Source: Letharia columbiana (taxonomy: Eukaryota; Ascomycota; Lecanoromycetes; Lecanorales; Parmeliaceae). Taken from it: a stretch of 64,000 nt of DNA. The stretch covers positions 744,001 through 808,000 of the forward strand of contig NW_023501037.1 in the NCBI RefSeq assembly GCF_014066305.1, read 5' to 3'. Below, piece by piece: positions 2,624-10,108 of this stretch (within the stretch, counting starts at the first letter, position 1; every line of letters starts with the position of its first letter). Under the pieces are notes generated by a model. The model did no database searches. It was not told where the DNA came from and worked only from the letters and a program-made list of their open reading frames with translations. The position numbers were made by a program, and so were the translations under genes.

Positions 2624-3951
2624 ATGGCCCAGAAACGTAAGATTCGTCTCTCAACGGGTGTCCCGTCCGCTCATAATGGCAGAGGCACTCTGCTGCATAT
2701 CCGTTGATATTGACGCTGTCGCCGGATGGCTGGGTTCATATGGTGGAGAAGACTCTACGAGTGATATATCAAGAGGTGTGTAAGTCCCTGATATACATGG
2801 GCAAGTAATACGCTGACTGGTCCAAGGTCTCTTCGCCGGTACGGTTGGAGTTCGCCGACTCCTGAAGTTATTTGCAAAATACGAAATCAAGACCACCTGG
2901 TTCATTCCTGGACACTCGCTGGAGACTTTCCCGGAGGAATGTGCAATGATAAGAGACGCAGGGCATGAGATGTATGGGAACAATACCACTTAGCGGAGGA
3001 TTACGGTGCTGAACAGATTCCTTCGCAGAGGCCTCCACGGCTACTCGCATGAGAACCCCGTGAAGATGAATCTTGAACAGCAACACGCTATCTTGGATAA
3101 AACCTACAAAGACCTCACTAAGTTCTGCGGGAAGCCGCCACGAGGGAACGTAGCACCCGTAAGTTATCCTTCTCTGAGCAATTTCATTCTGATCCTACTG
3201 CATTTCGAGTCGCGAGAATCGTCGCAGGAATGAAAGACTCCTAGGGCCTGTCTCACGACTTGAGATCAGTCCGAAAGAGACATTCTGACTCTTCAAACAT
3301 TTAGTGGTGGGAAGCGAGCCAGGAGGGTGCGGAATTGATGCTCAAGTACGGCGTAGAATACGGTCCGTACCCCGTGGCCCAGGAAATCGCTGTATATATC
3401 CTGAGATATCGTCTGCTCACACTATAAAAGATCACAGCTTCTCCCACCACGACTGCTTACCCTACTACCTCCGCACCGGCGACAAATGGACCCCAATCGA
3501 CTACAGCAAACACCCCGACCACTGGATGAAGCCGCTGGAGAAGGGCCCTGACACTGGTCTCGTAGAAATCCCAGCCAACTGGTATCTTGACGACCTCCCC
3601 CCCATGATGTTTATCAAGAAGGCACCCAACTCCCACGGTTGGGTGAACCCAAAGGACGTCGAGGACCTATGGAGAGATCATTTCGATTTCTTTTACAGAG
3701 AATACGACGACTTTTGCTTCCCAGTGACCATCCATCCGGACGTCAGCGGCCATCCACACGTGATTTTCATGCTGGAGAGATTGATCGAGTATATTAGCAG
3801 CAAGCCGGGTGTCAAGTGGGTGAAGATGGAGGACATCTGTGATGATTTCAAGAGCAAGAACAAGCCTCCCAAGGGGGCTATGTTGCCTGCGGAGCATGGT
3901 GCAATTCTTGATGATCCGAGTAAGTATTCTGCTTATGCAGCCACCTTCTAG
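2624..3951 (+). CDS. Polysaccharide deacetylase (chitin deacetylase-like, NodB-type)
   Basis: Predicted to be a metal-dependent carbohydrate esterase that removes N-acetyl groups from chitin or related glycans. My model has six exons: 2624-2636, 2683-2775, 2827-2971, 3029-3158, 3305-3362 and 3431-3951, giving 319 aa in one frame, the usual size for this cytosolic/cell-wall family. Visible family blocks are [17 protein letters not shown] near the N-terminus (metal-binding Asp), [24 protein letters not shown] (two metal His), [32 protein letters not shown] and [10 protein letters not shown]. No signal peptide is seen. The start at 2624 gives a short first exon matching the common MxxK start; ATG 2676 is an alternative. 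Intron 3 (146 bp) is much longer than the others and belongs to the introner-like family listed separately. The gene directly follows the RIP-mutated block yet has ordinary codon use. Confidence 0.85.
3159..3304 (+). repeat. Introner-like intron A (deacetylase intron 3)
   Basis: A 146 bp GT-AG intron (GTAAGT to TTTAG). Its core CGAGTCGCGAGAATCGTCGC at about 3206-3225 matches the cores of introns at 7054-7195, 8011-8121 and 8184-8337. The core pairs with TCTCACGACTTGAG downstream, and the 3' part ends TTCTGACTC plus a short tail. The other introns of this gene are 46-68 bp. Confidence 0.7.
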
Positions 3952-4386
3952 CGGCGAGAATTGAGTGCTAAGATAGTACTAGATATCCAACTTCAAAAGG
4001 CGTGAGGTAGCACTGCTGGCTTTGTATAGATGAGCACTAAGCATACCGCTCATCCTGCTCGTCTGGGCGTTTCACTTGGTCCATGTCAATGTAGGCAAAT
4101 GCCAGAGGCTACTATGGATTAACATCCCTCTATACCTTCCTCAGCATGTGATAATCTACGATATTTTCGTACAAGATTGCGCTGAAGACACAACATTTTG
4201 GCTTTTTGAAAGCCTGTGGCCCAGGTCATATGAACATGAGTCTTCATTTCGTTACCCATTATCTGTTCGTCACCTTCATAACATCAAGATCATTTCGCAG
4301 CAGACCCGTGGACGATTTTCATGACTGAAGAAGAGAAATATATAATATAGAACCAAGGTTCTATCAAGCCCTTCGCTACCACCACC
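3952..4386. other. Intergenic, no gene seen
   Basis: Between two convergent genes. Only short, unconvincing frames are present (the longest runs from 4076 to 4324 on the plus strand). It should hold both 3' ends. Confidence 0.5.
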
Positions 4387-4893
4387 TTATCTTGTCGAAT
4401 CGCTCCAACGCGATTTCAGATCAGGACTCGCATACACCTTGATCATCTCCCTCTTTGCCCTCGCCGCCTCTTTCCTGCGTTCATCATCATCATGCGGTCT
4501 CCTGAGGTTTCCCCTTTTTACGTGAACATTGTAATACTTCAACGCCTCACGATTCCGTTCTCGCTCCGCTTCGTCACGTACCTGTTGCCCATAGCCTTCG
4601 GCCCTTTTTCGCCCCAGGTGTTCCGTGTAATGTGTTTTGAGTTTTGCCTTTTCATCGTCAGCTGCGTAATGCTTCAATGCCTGACGGTTTCGTTCGCGTT
4701 CTGCTGCATCGCGTACCTGTTGCGCATACGCTTCCTTGTCCTCCTGATGCCAACGGGGCCTACGCTCTCCTTTGTGTCGGTAGGGGATATAGCCTCCTTT
4801 TTTATCCCAGTCGTAGTAGGAGCTGGAGGGGTGCTGTTTGCGGCGGTGGTCGCTATTGGGGCCGCTGGATTCGCGGGATGCTGCGCAACCCAT
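4387..4893 (-). CDS. Small charged protein with MGCAAS lipidation motif and internal repeat
   Basis: Function unknown. The 168 aa protein read from ATG 4893 begins MGCAASRESSG, a good N-myristoylation signal (Gly2, Ser6) with Cys3 available for palmitoylation, so membrane attachment is likely. The rest is very rich in Arg, Lys, Glu and His. It holds two copies of a module reading YAQQVRDAAERERNRQALK and YGQQVRDEAERERNREALK, about 45 residues apart, probably long helices. The open frame runs on upstream to 5133 without a stop, but the MGCAAS motif decides the start. The 3' end lies close to the convergent deacetylase gene. No enzyme motif is visible. Confidence 0.6.
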   Translation of the reverse strand: MGCAASRESSGPNSDHRRKQHPSSSYYDWDKKGGYIPYRHKGERRPRWHQEDKEAYAQQVRDAAERERNRQALKHYAADDEKAKLKTHYTEHLGRKRAEGYGQQVRDEAERERNREALKYYNVHVKRGNLRRPHDDDERRKEAARAKREMIKVYASPDLKSRWSDSTR

Positions 4894-4960
4894 GATGACG
4901 CTGAATACGTGGTATTTGGTTTGTGGTCGCTTGGAAGTTTGCCGGGTCTGAGATGTAAGG

Positions 4961-5478
4961 CTAAGGATTGCTTTCGTATATATATTTTTTGGATGCGATG
5001 GATTGATATAGTACGCAAGGCCTGAGGATGGTATTATACAGGAAGGAAAGGATCCGAAAACATGGGAGAAGAGAGCTCGTGAGTGAAGGAAAAGCTGTGT
5101 CGTATACAAAGGAATGCAGTGGATTTTTTTCAAAGGCCTTGTCGCACAATGTCAATTGTGCCATCTCCTGGTATGACAATGCCTTTCTCACTCGACCTTC
5201 ATTGTAACGAACAAAGACTGCTTGAGACATATGATCACCTGCATTTTGGTAGAGTTTCACAGTGCAAGGCTTCAGGAAACCATAGAAGCTCATCTCGGAT
5301 CTCTGCCTCTGCGACTGCTGTCTCATTTGCAAGAGCTTCGACCTAGACGTCCTTTTCAACCCTTGATGACGCTCCGAGCCTGGATTTAGAGACCACAGCA
5401 GGCATTGTATGTTCTGTTGGAACCGCAGAAGCAGTGACTGCTGCGTCCAACCTCGGGCTTGCTGGAGGTTGTGGACAT
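4961..5478 (-). pseudogene. SEC-C motif gene 2, paralogue of the gene at 6650-7442, probably degraded
   Basis: From ATG 5478 the minus strand encodes a start like that of the downstream SEC-C gene: MSTTSSKPEVG followed by CFCGSNRTYNACCG. This fits the zinc-binding SEC-C pattern CxCGS(x)nCCG known from SecA C-termini. The frame closes at a TAA directly after the motif unless an intron is used. A following open frame (down to 4961) contains VKLYQNAGDHMSQAVF, reminiscent of the paralogue's VMKLYNEPESN, but I could not find a clean splice joining the two. I therefore call it a relic or an unresolved gene. The SEC-C part is seen directly; its link to the second part is inference. Confidence 0.4.
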
Positions 5479-5900
5479 TTTGCAGAGTTGAGATTGATCT
5501 GACTATGCTCTGGAGGCTCTGATGGATTGTCCAACAGAATGGATTTTGCCGATGAAGCTTCGAACTCTAAGCAAATGGCGTGGAAGGTGGAGTGAAATTT
5601 CCAGGCGAATCACTGTGGTGACGCGCTTGCCCTTGATGCAGATCAAAACCATGGCTAACGCACAACACAATAGCTTGTATTAGAACGGAAGCTGCTCCCT
5701 GCTTTATCACATGGCCGGAACCCCCACTGTTGCCGTCCATCCATCATCCACCATCATCTTCCACATAGGCTACTAACACTTCCTGGTCTCCCTTGACACG
5801 GTCCATGTAAGACAAGCCACCAGATTCGAAATACTTCACCCTATTCAAAGCTGACTCCCAACGCCCCACAGCTACCCACCTCACAGGAAAATCTCTCAAC

Positions 5901-6378
5901 ATGGACTCCAGACCCTACCTCCAAGACCCTCGCCGTAAGTTTCCCTGCCCTTTGCAAGCTACATACTCCGATAACTGATCGATGCCCAACAGTCAGCGCC
6001 GACTCTAAACGCAAATTCGCCGAGTTTGAATCCATCGCCCGAGCTAGCTGCCCACCCACCCTGCGACTCTCGCAGCTGTACGACACGGCTTCGAAGCGTC
6101 CTGGGAACAATGATCCATTCCTTGCGTGATAGAAGGGTATTTCGGACGCACAGACGCGGCTGGCGCTGGAGACGCACGCCGCGGTCTCCAAGTTCAAGAG
6201 TCTCGAGGCACAACTGGATGGCAGTGTGAGCAAATTCGAGGAACGGAAAGAGCAATATGACGTGGTAGTGGATGCGACGAGCCGCTGGGCTTTGGAGCAG
6301 CAGGAGGTACTTGCCATCGACCGGGTCAATACGTTCGTCGCGGAAGAGGAGGCTTTGATAGCTGCAGGGACTGCTTAG
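5901..6378 (+). pseudogene. Small helical protein gene with two adjacent in-frame stops
   Basis: The family is not recognised. ATG 5901 opens MDSRPYLQDPR, a 58 bp intron lies at 5935-5992 (GTAAGT to ACAG), and the second exon reads on to TGA TAG at 6127-6132. The same frame then continues without a break to TAG 6376-6378 and encodes a typical amphipathic helix (ALETHAAVSKFKSLEAQLDG, then KFEERKEQYDVVVDA). Full length would be about 140 codons. The two consecutive stops after residue 56 break it. The nearby CACAG acceptor would give a 28 bp intron, too short and in the wrong phase, so splicing does not rescue it. Confidence 0.5.
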
Positions 6379-6649
6379 CTTCATGGGCAACTGCGGGGAG
6401 TATTTTGCTCGCAAGAGCTGCTGCTTTGCTTTTGGGGACAGATCTCAAGGATGGAGTCGATTTTGAAGAAAGCAACATCAATGGCCAGAATCCAAGCGCT
6501 GGCTGAGGCTCACTGAAAGAGTGCGGGAATGGACACCGAAGACTTTAGAGAGAAAAAAATATAAAGAAAAAACCCTCCGAGTCTCCAATTTCCTGAACCC
6601 TTAAACGTTCCACTTGTCACCTGAGTAGGTACTTGTTCACCGCGCCCAT

Positions 6650-7442
6650 CTAAGAACCTGAGTTCTCCCCCGCAACCCCCTCGGTAGCTTCAGCCCCGAA
6701 AGTCTTATCGAACGTCTCCTGAGCTGATCTCATTGCCTCCTCCTCTACCGCCTGCCGTAGGGTCATCATCAATGCCTCAAGTGATTCCTGGGGAGTTTTC
6801 TGCAATGCGGCTGTGCTGCACTTAAGCATTGGCTGCTTTCCAGGCTTGTTAAGCTGCACGTAGCTTCTGAACATCTTTCCAGAAACATCATCGTTGCGTG
6901 TGATGATCTTGATGTTTGACTCAGGTTCGTTGTATAGCTTCATTACAAGCTCTAGAAGCACTGGGTTAGTTCTTGTGGTCCTTGTTCGTAGAGAGTAGAG
7001 GATTTGCCCTACTTTTTGTTTTCGCCTCCACGTTCTTGATGTATTCGTAGACTCTACGCACATTTCGGGGTCAGCGTTGCTTCTTCAAGGTAGATGATTG
7101 AGTTGCAAGACAGGTCTCGCGAGCAGAACAGGTCAATTTGCTCCCGAAACATTCCTTGCGACTCATATTTCAGTACCAGATAGGAATTTACGTACGTAGA
7201 ATGCGAAGGGAATAACAATTCAACGTTTGCATCAGTCATCGCCTTTGGGGCCGCAAGGTTCGACTGCTAGTGACTCCGTCAGCAGAAGTCTAGAACATCC
7301 TAGGGTTGAGCTTTGCTGGCAATGGAACAGATCTACTTACCTTTTTCTCGCCGCAGCAGGCTTTGACTTTCTTGCTAGAACCGCACTCGCAGCGATCGTT
7401 GCGTCCAGCTTTGGAAGCCAGCTGGCTGGAGGATGTCGGCAT
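6650..7442 (-). CDS. SEC-C motif protein
   Basis: Exact role unknown. The SEC-C motif is a short zinc-binding module found at the end of bacterial SecA and in assorted eukaryotic proteins, where it is thought to bind protein or nucleic acid partners. Four exons fit: 7442-7341, 7263-7196, 7053-7013 and 6960-6650, giving 173 aa with all phases consistent. Exon 1 carries GRNDRCECGSSKKVKACCG, a near-perfect motif (Cys18, Cys20, Cys29, Cys30). The remainder is helical and charged and ends in Gly/Glu/Ser. Introns: 77 bp, 142 bp and 52 bp (the last with a CTAAC branch site before CAG). The 142 bp intron is an introner-like element that can be read in frame with exon 2, so a gene finder could easily take it as coding. 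A broken paralogue lies about 1.2 kb further on (4961-5478). Confidence 0.65.
7054..7195 (-). repeat. Introner-like intron B (SEC-C gene intron 2)
   Basis: A 142 bp GT-AG intron (GTACGT to GCGTAG). The core TGAGTCGCAAGGAATGTTTC is about 7165-7142 on the minus strand and pairs with CTTGCAACTC further on. The 3' end CGCTGACCCCGAAAT matches CTACTGACTCCGAAAT of the intron at 8184-8337. Removing it restores a single frame across the gene. Confidence 0.7.
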
Positions 7443-7502
7443 TTTCTTCGAAAGCTATCTATTGAGCGTGAAGAGTCCACGTATTGGTTTCGATACAGAA
7501 GT

Positions 7503-7916
7503 ATGTCCGGATCTGGGACAGATCATGCTGCTGATGTTGAACGGGTTGGCAAGAACCTTATATACCAAATTGACGGAGACCAAGGGTCATTCAATCCATT
7601 CAGGCGCCTGGAGTTCTCTTTCAAGCCCGGAGGCACCCAACTTTCGGAACATCACATTTCGTCCATTGGGTCTCACATTATCGCGACTGCTAGAGTTTGT
7701 GGGATACTGTTTGTTGACACCGAACTTTTTTGGAATAAAGAATCATCTAGTGGTGTAAATGTTACTGGTATGCAAATGGAAAGCCTGACTCCATATGTTC
7801 TCCCGAAGCTGGCGTCTCCTATACAGTTCGTGGTATCATTAAATCATTTGCTCCGGTCCATCGCAAAAAAATCGAACCTGACACCAATCGCCTCGAAAGT
7901 CTCCGGCTTATATTGA
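7503..7916 (+). CDS. Possible hypothetical protein
   Basis: A 137 aa open frame, divergent from the SEC-C gene (61 bp between the start codons). No motif or family is recognised. Its composition is ordinary (for example FNPFRRLEFSFKPGGTQL), with no signal peptide or membrane segment. It could be a chance frame, since it extends back over SEC-C exon 1. If it is not real, 7443-8001 is simply the spacer between the SEC-C start and the INP1 3' end. Confidence 0.22.
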   Translation: MSGSGTDHAADVERVGKNLIYQIDGDQGSFNPFRRLEFSFKPGGTQLSEHHISSIGSHIIATARVCGILFVDTELFWNKESSSGVNVTGMQMESLTPYVLPKLASPIQFVVSLNHLLRSIAKKSNLTPIASKVSGLY

Positions 7917-8001
7917 AGCATATCCAATTTGGGGCATTCACCAGAATAAATGTCTTTCTTCAGTCAATCTCCCACTGCAGGTTTTTCAGTCAGAATTCCC
8001 T

Positions 8002-10108
8002 TTACAAGATCTAGGAATTGAGTCAGAAGACAGTTGCGGCAGTCAGTGTACTCCCGCAACGTGTCTCGCGACTCAAAGCAGAGAACGAACAAGAAGGTAA
8101 AGGGCAGGGAGAGTTGCTTACAGATCCGCCCATCTCGCTAGCTCTGCTATCTTTCGATGATAAGTTCTTGCGGAGGGAAACACCTGCATATTTCGGAGTC
8201 AGTAGGACTTTTTTGAGGCCGAAACCAGGTTGTGAGACAGGTGTTGGGATTGAATGAGCTTTTTGCTCGCAAAACATGTCTCACGAGTCAACTCGCGGTC
8301 TGACTTGTGAACAAAATGCCAAGAAAAGTACACCTACCATAGTCGTCCTCTTCCCAGGTTTCATCAGCTCCATCGCTAGCATCACTGAAGTCCCAAGAGC
8401 ACGGTATCTTCTGTCCGCCGTCACCAAAGCCAAATGAAGTGCCTCGGGAAGCACCTCGAGCTATCTTAGCAGCGATCCTCATCATAAGGGCGACCAGCTG
8501 AATAGGTGGTCCCAACAACAGCGAGCACGTTTTTTGAAGAATTGCTGTGGTCATATGGTGACCTGACATATGTGAACGAGGTGAGTAAGGAGAGTACAGA
8601 TTTGAAGACGGTGGGAGTGGTGATTGACCTCGTCTCTTTCGTCTGATACCATGACGGCGAAGCTTGGTATGAGGTGAAGGTGTCGTAGGCTCGGGCCAAT
8701 GGTCATCATCTTGTGATGCAGCATCGCTTACCAATGGCGGCGTCCCTGGGAGATCAGGCGGTGAGTGATATGTACTTCCGTCCTCGGGCTTTGCGTCACT
8801 CATGTCCCAAAGCTCAGGAGACGAGGCTGTGACGGTGATCTCATATACATCACGTTTGTGGTTGCGGATTTCCGGTATGTCGATGCCGGCGTATTCCTCT
8901 CGCGGAGATGTAGGAAAGGGAGGTGAAGGCGCCAGAGGAGATATTGGGCTGTGAAAAGAATGGAAGGAGTCCACGCTCGAAGAGAGACTAGACGACTCTC
9001 TCTTGACATTGGGTAAGGCGAGAGACTCTGCTTCCTTGTTAGATGGTGGCGAGGTCCTGATGGTCAACTGTGGTGGTGCGGTGATGGCTCGCCCGGTCCG
9101 CAGACCCTTGGGCCGAGTGGGGGTCTTGAAGTCGTCGGGTTCTTCGTAGACATTTTCGTGCAAATCTTTGGGGTCAAAGCTTATAGCGTCGGTAGCCTCA
9201 CTGCCACCTTCGTTTTCCGTGCTCCCAGTACTACTGACGTCCGAATGTACGACTTGGAAGCTTGCTTCTGTCTCGCGATGTGTCTCAATATCAGGCTCGA
9301 CTAGCTCGCCCTTTCCAGCGTCTGGGCTCCGGGTGAACGTATCATTTATCGAAAACTCGCCTAAGTCTTCTATCACTTCAGGTACTTTTTCTGACATGGT
9401 ATCAAGTCGGGGCTTAGGTCTCCATGGTCGCTTCTGGATGGGTGTTTTTGAAGGCTGTGGTAGGTCGATGGTGAAACCCCTCTTGAAAGGACATGGAGTG
9501 GCTTCATATTGTAGTACTTTTGTCAGGACATTTTTGAAGTCATCCACCTTCTTCTTATCTTCAGAGCCTGCTCGTGGCAGTTCGATACGATAGTAAGCGT
9601 TCGGACGGATTCGGAGCACGAATTTAGATTCGCCGTCCACGCACCAACACTGCGATTTTGATAGTAGAGGCTGCAGCGTGGTGCCAGAGTTGAGGAAGGC
9701 CGTACCCAGAACTCTGTAGATCCGTAGGGGCCCTATGAAGAAGTCTTAGCTGGATAGTACTGTATCTATCTGAGTACGCTCGAGCATACCAGCGGCCAAG
9801 GTTCTCTCAGTGGTAGAGAACCATGGCAATGTCCCGACAGGTTCCTCTTGGAGCTCAGCCCGTCCGTTGCTGATACTCGAATGCCTTCGAGCCAAGCTTG
9901 TTGGGTTGTTGAATGAAACAATTCTTCCAGCGCCATGTGCGTATAATGTTTCAGCTCCGTCAACTGTCTCCTCCGGGAGTGGGATTGACCTAGAGGACCG
10001 AATTGGTGCAGTAAAGGAGCGGCGGATAAACGGCGGGGGAGTCGCTCTCTCTGGCGTAGATGGCGCTGATGCGAGCGCCATTTGATAAGGATCAGGAAGG
10101 CGGTCCAC
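8002..10108 (-). CDS. INP1: Inheritance of peroxisomes protein 1 (Inp1) orthologue
   Basis: Inp1 is a peripheral peroxisomal membrane protein that tethers peroxisomes to the cell cortex and keeps a share of them in the mother cell or older compartment. Exons 10108-9778, 9732-8338, 8183-8122 and 8010-8002 give 598 aa, a normal length for filamentous fungi. Family blocks: an N-terminal proline-rich stretch with RRSFTAPIRSS, then ETLYAHGAGRIVSFNN, LPWFSTTERTLA, PLRIYRVLGTAFLNSG, the CWCVDGESKFVLRIRP/YYRIELP core, and TPCPFKRGFTIDLP. The long middle and C-terminal part is disordered and rich in Ser, Pro and Thr, with a basic HGIRRKRRGQSP patch. The last two introns (154 and 111 bp) are introner-like. 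The final coding exon is only three codons, so the true C-terminus is uncertain. Confidence 0.8.
8011..8121 (-). repeat. Introner-like intron C (INP1 last intron)
   Basis: 111 bp, GTAAGC to CCTAG. The core TTTGAGTCGCGAGACACGTT (about 8076-8057, minus) is followed by GCGG and a near-perfect complement (CCGCAAC, TGTCT, GACTC), making a strong hairpin. It ends TTCTGACTC plus a short tail, as in intron A. Confidence 0.7.
8184..8337 (-). repeat. Introner-like intron D (INP1 intron 2)
   Basis: 154 bp, GTAGGT to GCAG. The core TTGACTCGTGAGACATGTTT (about 8292-8273, minus) pairs with TGTCTCACAAC downstream. The 3' end CTACTGACTCCGAAATATGC resembles those of introns A and B. Its flanking coding phase is 1. 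Confidence 0.7.

Follow-up and report, generated by a model that had tools for sequence, protein, structure and literature searches.

The origin of new introns is a long-standing question, and introners are a known and poorly understood route of intron gain. The locus described here, in a 64-kb window of the Letharia columbiana genome (the whole stretch of DNA analyzed), raises that question in a compact form: are four long introns in three neighboring genes copies of one another, and how might such copies have spread? We conclude, with a probability of roughly 0.85, that the four introns belong to introner-like families A, B, and C and their diverged relatives, which have multiplied in L. columbiana, and we propose a mechanism for their multiplication.

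The three host genes are unrelated, as the sequence-only reading of this DNA had supposed. The first (2676..3951, forward strand; the 3′ end of the model is provisional) encodes a polysaccharide/peptidoglycan deacetylase-like protein. Its best solved relative is 3qbu (E = 8e-121), and its orthologues with PF01522 are 88% identical (the best among the matches listed). The second (6650..7442, reverse strand) encodes a protein of 171 aa that has no Pfam match and whose start resembles a SEC-C type zinc motif. The third (7960..10081, reverse strand) encodes Inp1, inheritance of peroxisomes protein 1 (PF12634, E = 3e-40), and the orthologue from Alectoria sarmentosa is 86% identical.

Intron 1 (3159..3304, forward strand; 146 nt, phase 0) separates VAP from WWE in the gene for the deacetylase. 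The gene for the 171-aa protein carries intron 2 (7054..7195, reverse strand; 142 nt), a family C element missing part of its 5′ arm. Two more, intron 3 (7975..8121; 147 nt with a corrected acceptor) and intron 4 (8184..8337; 154 nt, phase 1), interrupt the Inp1 gene, both on the reverse strand. The predicted GT..AG borders were present in all four, although one acceptor had to be moved. With the acceptor of intron 3 at 8011, as first proposed, the protein would end in ...GGSIL*, while 7975 gives ...GGSWEID*. We placed the acceptor at 7975 because SWEID is a conserved Inp1 C-terminus, found in 20 of 49 fetched relatives. Both acceptors preserve the reading frame. The introns are about twice the ordinary length, as noted from the start (142–154 nt, compared with 51–74 nt among six ordinary introns from these genes). 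All four share a core, a downstream complement of it and a 3′ end with CTGAC, and introns 2 and 3 agree in their cores at 26 of 35 alignment columns, counted by eye, the figure given in the sequence-only reading; the longer ending CTGACTC proposed for the whole set reads CTGACCC in intron 2. The predicted hairpins fared unevenly: folding is significant for introns 2 (z = -2.8) and 3 (z = -4.3) and weak for introns 1 (z = -1.6) and 4 (z = -1.8), and among the six ordinary introns the strongest case is z = -2.6, in a single intron.

A search model that held sequence but no structure (R1) was built with the four window introns included. Its matches to them are therefore not independent, so we made a separate, combined profile from 86 copies that all lie outside the window. 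This profile recovered intron 2 at E = 1.2e-32, intron 4 at 6.4e-20, intron 3 at 5.9e-13, and intron 1 at 6.9e-12. Throughout the 64 kb it gave no other match at E ≤ 10, except where these four introns were read on their opposite strands, and the single-family profiles gave a few chance-level extra matches in the window (best E = 0.21). Judged by these profile scores, the relatedness of the four introns is far beyond chance. Intron 1, which as a genome DNA query matched only itself, is by its profile scores a diverged copy with family B as its nearest relative (E = 8.5e-11 with the family B profile). Used as a genome query, intron 2 gave 70 candidates, of which 40 were scored (intron 2 among them), with identities to the other copies of up to 89%, and intron 3 aligns over its full length with one copy elsewhere (L021).

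Searches of the genome defined three families (147–168 nt). All 27 candidates were scored for consensus A, 40 of 65 for consensus B, and 40 of 138 for consensus C. Matches covering the whole consensus made up 19/27, 35/40, and 31/40 (sense matches, for C) of those scored, respectively, and the others were shorter or diverged at their ends. Most matches begin exactly at GT and stop exactly at AG; in most copies the borders coincide with the splice sites, and the unit copied is a complete intron. A 14-mer from the 3′ end has 104 exact occurrences in the genome, against 0 for a control, and a 13-mer search gave 27 matches against 1; one of the 13-mer matches (L011) looks like ordinary coding sequence. 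Borders could be defined for 86 copies. Seven of 57 A/B loci with unclear borders (L047, L062, L069, L076, L081, L082, and L084) were dropped, as were L056 (a duplicate of L057), L131 among 38 family C loci, and intron 2 itself; the family C counts of 37 include the duplicated pairs L115/L116 and L111/L121. The closest pair of copies is 97.3% identical, median within-family identity is 73% for A (n = 21), 85% for B (n = 28), and 78% for C (first 20), and a few copies form tandem or overlapping pairs. The sequence-only reading had staked its case on further copies in the genome, and with their discovery and the independent profile its proposal of an introner-like family, descended by copying, gains support. 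Its pointer to Dothideomycetes does not suit the host, which is a lichen-forming Lecanoromycete; a Dothideomycete origin of the DNA is rejected, given the 86% identity of its Inp1 to that of Alectoria sarmentosa.

Splicing of the window introns and of the copies elsewhere is inferred from protein continuity at GT..AG borders and from a matching database protein. Removal of intron 1 yields VAPWWE, which is uninterrupted in 3qbu. Removal of intron 2 yields HSTVYEYIKN, also present in P0241, an independent database protein (source ‘lgn’) that is identical to the intron-free model of the second host gene at 169 of 171 positions. Taking out copies elsewhere restores KVKGQC^TTD in an aconitase, LFG^PAYKG in an orotate phosphoribosyltransferase and, for family C, HPD^K in a phosphomannose isomerase. 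Fifty joined proteins were made and ten of them scanned against Pfam; a domain spans the joint in seven (L028, L040, L049, L064, L071, L074, and L083), does not cross it in L041 and L053, and is only touched at its edge in L045. The MFS match in L028 falls slightly under the curated cut-off. Where they could be checked, insertions leave conserved codons intact.

Reading frames across the joints point the same way for families A and B. Over 90 + 90 nt the joined frame is open in 40 of 50 copies, compared with 19–32 for shifted joints, 15 in antisense, 11 with the element retained, and a mean of 29.8 for shuffled partners (s.d. 2.8, maximum 37, 200 rounds). The sense frame outscores the antisense frame in 42 of 49 copies (not in the other 7), and its score exceeds zero in only 28 of the 49. 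For family C with 45-nt flanks, the true joint is open in 32/34 cases vs. 29–30 for shifted joints, a poor separation, and the seamlessness of these insertions rests on single conserved motifs. One such motif, YjiA-like, shows a one-residue gap near the joint in its alignment. Neighboring copies share a strand in 38 of 42 cases, and in all 26 of those within 800 bp. Flanks have a gene-like composition, with a GC of 0.51 against 0.38 over the window as a whole.

Copies of A, B, and C showed no consistent target-site duplication; a repeat matching at both ends over at least 3 nt occurs in 1/42 copies, and over at least 4 nt in 0/42. Size by size, flanks match about as often as shuffled partners do; they match more often for B at 9 nt (35% vs. 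26%, 3 s.d.) and for C at 7 nt (32% vs. 25%, 2 s.d.), values far below those of a real duplication. A duplication at a shifted border was considered and rejected: a single register gave 3-nt matches in 7/42 copies, which we read as the GTAAGG of family A set against AG plus an exon G. The bordering exons are biased in a family-specific way. In family C an A follows at +1 in 29/37 copies, the base at -1 is C or G in 34/37, and the site is C|A in 20/37; a recount without the duplicated pairs gives C|A at 19/35 and A at +1 in 27/35. Family B has C at -2 in 15/28 copies and C at +2 in 16/28, favoring C or G at the latter position, and family A shows little flank preference. The bias of family C may reveal the mechanism of insertion.

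The consensus introns of the families are nearly end-to-end inverted repeats, and A, B, and C (at least three families) group around a shared central palindrome. Family C carries terminal inverted repeats of 16 nt, starting at nucleotide 2, with 15/16 positions matching; in family A the repeat block is set 3–5 nt in from the ends, and in B it is weaker. The consensus sequences fold far more strongly than the four window introns (z = -7.1, -6.3, and -10.0 for A, B, and C), and single copies reach z < -2 in 11/21, 14/28, and 35/37 cases, respectively. The folding energy of the family C consensus is -66.2 from 20 copies and -57.6 from 35, a few near-even columns having changed. RNAalifold returned no consensus structure for a mixed alignment of 21 introns, so that model R1 held sequence only. 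In single copies, folding showed no correlation with how closely the copy matches the consensus. Selection keeping the structure in each copy is unsupported: changes in paired columns more often broke the pair than kept it (150 vs. 106 cells in A, 137 vs. 72 in B, and 237 vs. 118 in C).

The two introns of the Inp1 gene differ in age. Their history was followed in 49 Inp1 proteins, which we chose from 120 listed. At the site of intron 4, 48 of the 49 proteins run straight through and only one, which is 99% identical (P0005), reads into the intron; by this comparison intron 4 is a recent insertion. At the position of intron 3, 28 of the 49 read into an intron, all 28 of them without intron 4, and intron 3 is, on the same protein comparison, an old insertion common to many relatives. 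The comparison of orthologues that the sequence-only reading had called for separates the two.

On these data we regard the elements as fungal introner-like elements of the symmetrical kind, here in the genome of a lichen fungus. By sequence each is a whole U2-type intron that brings along a GT donor, a CTGAC motif resembling a branch point, and an AG acceptor, and removal by the spliceosome would make its insertion nearly harmless. New copies would come from excised intron RNA that is paired with itself, or from its cDNA, going back into a transcribed gene on the coding strand. The route would be either reverse splicing into an R-loop or the patching of a DNA break, and after insertion the hairpin would not be maintained and would decay. 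We lean slightly toward an RNA intermediate for the copying step, hold transposition of DNA alone, with the terminal repeats as its guide, to be a weaker candidate, and consider any other route improbable. Reverse splicing has its own difficulties: one spliceosome would not predict exon biases that differ among C, B, and A, and end-to-end inverted repeats, which resemble transposon ends, go unexplained by it. Conceivably, though we doubt it, each family selects its own target, with (C or G)|A for C, C at -2 and C/G at +2 for B, and little preference for A. Given that the splice sites lie within end-to-end inverted repeats, such element-encoded selection would imply that transcribed exons are the substrate of a transposition chemistry that leaves no target-site duplication. 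Neither reverse splicing by the spliceosome nor the cut-and-paste introners known so far would match this mode of targeting.

The most serious competitor, which we hold to be possible and clearly the less probable, is that the elements are non-autonomous MITE-like DNA transposons bearing splice sites, whose terminal inverted repeats are recognized by a transposase, either the host's own or a foreign one, and whose antisense and frame-damaging copies were purged by selection. The 15/16-matching repeats of family C and the family-specific flanking bases, as expected of an integrase, fit this explanation, and such signs are described for many non-ascomycete introner families in a survey (PMC9860276). 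It is harder to reconcile with the lack of a consistent target-site duplication in all three families, the scarcity of opposite-strand neighbors (4/42, the nearest 814 bp apart), and the gene-like flanks. Breaks in transcribed genes might instead have been patched with intron RNA that was then copied to DNA, the double-strand-break model put forward for stwintrons of Hypoxylaceae (PMC12403724). Codons neither gained nor lost, the symmetry of the RNA, and the common strand of neighbors would agree with it, but random breaks would not yield the C|A bias of family C, and we think this explanation unlikely.

Structured RNAs of a self-splicing or snoRNA type inside the introns could account for the strong consensus hairpins, but no Rfam family reached its gathering threshold anywhere in the window and the structure is not maintained between copies, so that this explanation is very improbable. 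Chance similarity, or long introns having converged on splice signals, has in its favor that GT, a branch point, and AG are common to all fungal introns; the independent profile scores and the 14-mer counts refute it, and we give it almost no weight. The introner-like reading, with a slight lean toward copying through RNA, is the one we carry forward. It adds a Lecanoromycete that forms lichens to the hosts of introner-like elements of the fungal type. Our search of titles and the listed parts of abstracts in the open literature found no report of introners in lichen fungi or Lecanoromycetes; the papers it listed for introners and lichens concern Pleosporales and Sapotaceae. In Letharia, young families whose copies are up to 97% identical occur beside an old insertion that relatives share and a target bias that can be measured, and RNA- and DNA-mediated copying make different predictions for this genome.

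Among known systems, group I and II self-splicing introns are set apart by the absence of any Rfam match in the window at gathering threshold. Algal and protist DNA-transposon introners resemble family C in the inverted repeats at their ends, but the Letharia elements show neither a consistent target-site duplication nor splice sites co-opted from one. The survey cited above states that ascomycete introner families have neither TIRs nor TSDs (PMC9860276), a statement that the TIRs of family C do not fit. Introner-like elements of Dothideomycetes (Fulvia fulva, Dothistroma, and Zymoseptoria) are, as described in parts of PMC4457414, near-identical long spliceosomal introns in many unrelated genes, with several families per genome that degenerate with age and sometimes two elements per gene; excerpts of PMC8469720 add stable structure or inverted repeats, seamless insertion, and a cited exon preference for AG/GY. 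By these published descriptions the Letharia elements are alike in occupying many genes, in length, in forming several families, in lying two to a gene, in decaying with age, in their inverted repeats or structure, and in seamless insertion, whereas their host belongs to another class, the Lecanoromycetes, and family C prefers C|A. A close parallel is found in the symmetrical sister (stw)introns of Hypoxylaceae and Xylariaceae, for which sections of two papers describe terminal inverted repeats, symmetry, seamless insertion without target-site duplication, function on the coding strand only, and no bias in the bordering exons (PMC8469720; PMC12403724). The nested [D1,2] twin intron does not occur among the 86 bordered Letharia copies, which were defined as single introns. 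Terminal inverted repeats, symmetry, seamless insertion, and the lack of target-site duplication are thus common to both, as far as those sections describe them, while the Letharia elements differ in being canonical introns of 147–168 nt, in forming at least three families around a common central palindrome, and in the strong exon bias of family C.

The four candidate introner-like introns of the window sit in three genes: intron 1 (3159-3304, forward strand) in a deacetylase gene, intron 2 (7054-7195, reverse strand) in a gene for a 171-aa protein, and introns 3 (7975-8121) and 4 (8184-8337), both on the reverse strand, in a gene identified as Inp1 by a match to PF12634, whose product is 86% identical to Alectoria sarmentosa Inp1 in a protein comparison. 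Six ordinary introns of the same genes span 51-74 nt, so the greater length noted in the sequence-only reading holds. With intron 1 removed, the deacetylase model aligns without gaps to 3qbu across VAP|WWE, and V(A/V)PWWE is present in all seven fetched orthologues. Removal of intron 2 leaves a product identical at 169 of 171 residues to one database protein; a second, P0242, begins by eye inside the 3' end of intron 2, indicating that this relative carries the intron too. Intron 3 had been drawn at 8011-8121. Its donor-side end is retained, but the acceptor at 8011 was wrong, as the conserved Inp1 C-terminus SWEID places it at 7975.

The proposed kinship of the four introns was borne out by a combined profile made from 86 bordered copies (21 of family A, 28 of B and 37 of C), all from outside the window, which recovered them with E-values of 1.2e-32 (intron 2), 6.4e-20 (intron 4), 5.9e-13 (intron 3) and 6.9e-12 (intron 1). 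Because these elements are inverted repeats, the opposite strand of each also matches (E 1e-14 to 6e-6); nothing else in the window matched at E <= 10. Used as single DNA queries, intron 2 returned 40 scored places of 70 candidates, intron 3 six and intron 4 four, each including itself, and intron 1 found only itself. This places intron 2 in a large family (C) and shows introns 1, 3 and 4 to be diverged.

Further copies occur elsewhere in the genome, as predicted. Consensus A (165-nt query) matched 27 of 27 candidates at 70-90% identity (19 full-length), consensus B (147 nt) gave 40 scored copies of 65 candidates at 86-95% (35 full-length), and consensus C (155 nt) gave 40 of 138 at 83-91% (31 full-length), with seven weaker matches that lie antisense to copies of this kind. 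The closest pair, L028/L029, is 97.3% identical. The 14-mer GCTGACTCCGAAAT occurs 47+57 times in the genome, versus 0+0 for the reversed control. Since only 26 of the 86 bordered copies contain it (4/21 A, 14/28 B, 8/37 C), the genome total is likely several hundred. Four pairs on different contigs (L012/L027, L024/L025, L115/L116, L111/L121) have identical or near-identical flanks, which we read as duplicated or uncollapsed assembly regions; L012/L027 are the same places as L057/L056. Window positions 36001-62000 have a GC content of 15-33% across 26 kb, versus 46-57% in 2001-36000, and look like mutated, RIP-like repeats; the profile search found no element copies there.

The core, downstream complement and CTGAC-bearing 3' end described for the four introns recur across families, as a central palindrome around TGAGTCGCRAGACATGTT with its complement downstream and an end CTGACTCCGAAAT..AG containing the branch-point-like CTGAC. 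In family C, inverted repeats run inward from nt 2 (TACGTACATTTCGGAG vs TACGCACATTTCGGAG, 15/16 matching), so the terminal stem encloses both donor and acceptor. The consensus sequences fold at -60.1 (A), -47.8 (B) and -66.2 kcal/mol (C), with z of -7.1, -6.3 and -10.0. Single copies fold less strongly (median z -2.4, -2.0 and -3.9), and across copies a change in a paired column disrupts the pair more frequently than it preserves it, so the symmetry looks ancestral and now decaying. At 147 nt, the family B consensus has a length divisible by three, and by eye two of its three frames are free of stops; 18 of 28 B copies likewise have lengths that are multiples of three. If retained, such an intron could add 49 residues with no stop.

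Introns 3 and 4 differ in age. Of the 120 Inp1 proteins listed, 49 were fetched. The intron 4 site is crossed without a break by 48 of them, and 28 of these 48 run into an intron at the intron 3 site; these are therefore unspliced models, and genuinely empty at intron 4. Some read-throughs translate the element core by eye (ESQDTMRK in P0007; ELSRRTRCGS in P0011 vs ALSRETRCGS in the window), which marks intron 3 as an old copy common to relatives. On these protein comparisons, intron 3 is old and shared, and intron 4 is recent. The SWEID C-terminus in 20 fetched proteins could mean either that intron 3 is absent or that the model is spliced. P0005 (99% identity over 74% of the query) is the sole fetched protein that reads into intron 4; this public model continues through 8288-8337 and ends RCTFLGILFTSQTAS, likely an annotation error caused by the element.

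Flanks of A and B copies joined at the true joint (90+90 nt) were open in frame in 40 of 50 cases, versus 19-32 for shifted joints and a mean of 29.8 for shuffled partners. Joints fall within conserved motifs of aconitase, orotate phosphoribosyltransferase and phosphomannose isomerase. A fourth such motif, of a YjiA-like GTPase, is weakly matched, and its alignment has a gap of one residue close to the joint. The borders revealed no consistent target-site duplication: repeats of at least 3 nt occurred in 1 of 42 copies and of at least 4 nt in none. Flank matches resembled those of shuffled partners; the two exceptions are mild (35% vs 26% for B at 9 nt, 32% vs 25% for C at 7 nt). The bases flanking the introns are biased in ways that differ between families: in family C the base after the intron is A in 29/37 copies (chi-square p 6e-14) and the base before it is C or G in 34/37, family B has C at -2 in 15/28 (p 0.009) and at +2 in 16/28 (p 0.0005), and in family A the sole signal is T or G at +1 (17/21, p 0.013). 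With sixteen positions examined per family, only the family C bias is beyond doubt. In a family C sub-group (L107, L110, L117-L120), AG or G precedes instead of C and the acceptor tails differ, as if it were a subfamily with a different target preference. Of 42 further copies lying within 1.5 kb of fetched ones, 38 share their strand, and the closest opposite-strand copy lies 814 bp away. At L073, L072, L081, L117 and L093, copies stand in tandem 0-2 nt apart, and at L081 the AG of one copy and the GTAAGG of its successor overlap, an arrangement resembling the birth of [D1,2] twin introns through nested insertion.

Every feature of fungal introner-like elements that was tested is present here, with splicing predicted, in keeping with the original introner-like reading. 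Earlier work has described such elements in Dothideomycetes (PMC4457414) and symmetrical forms in Hypoxylaceae and Xylariaceae (PMC8469720; PMC12403724), and a broad survey reports that TIRs and TSDs are both lacking in ascomycete introners (PMC9860276). The Letharia elements agree in symmetry with the Hypoxylaceae type. The host is a lichen-forming Lecanoromycete, not a Dothideomycete, and the new points are this host class, the presence of several families around one palindrome, and the target bias.
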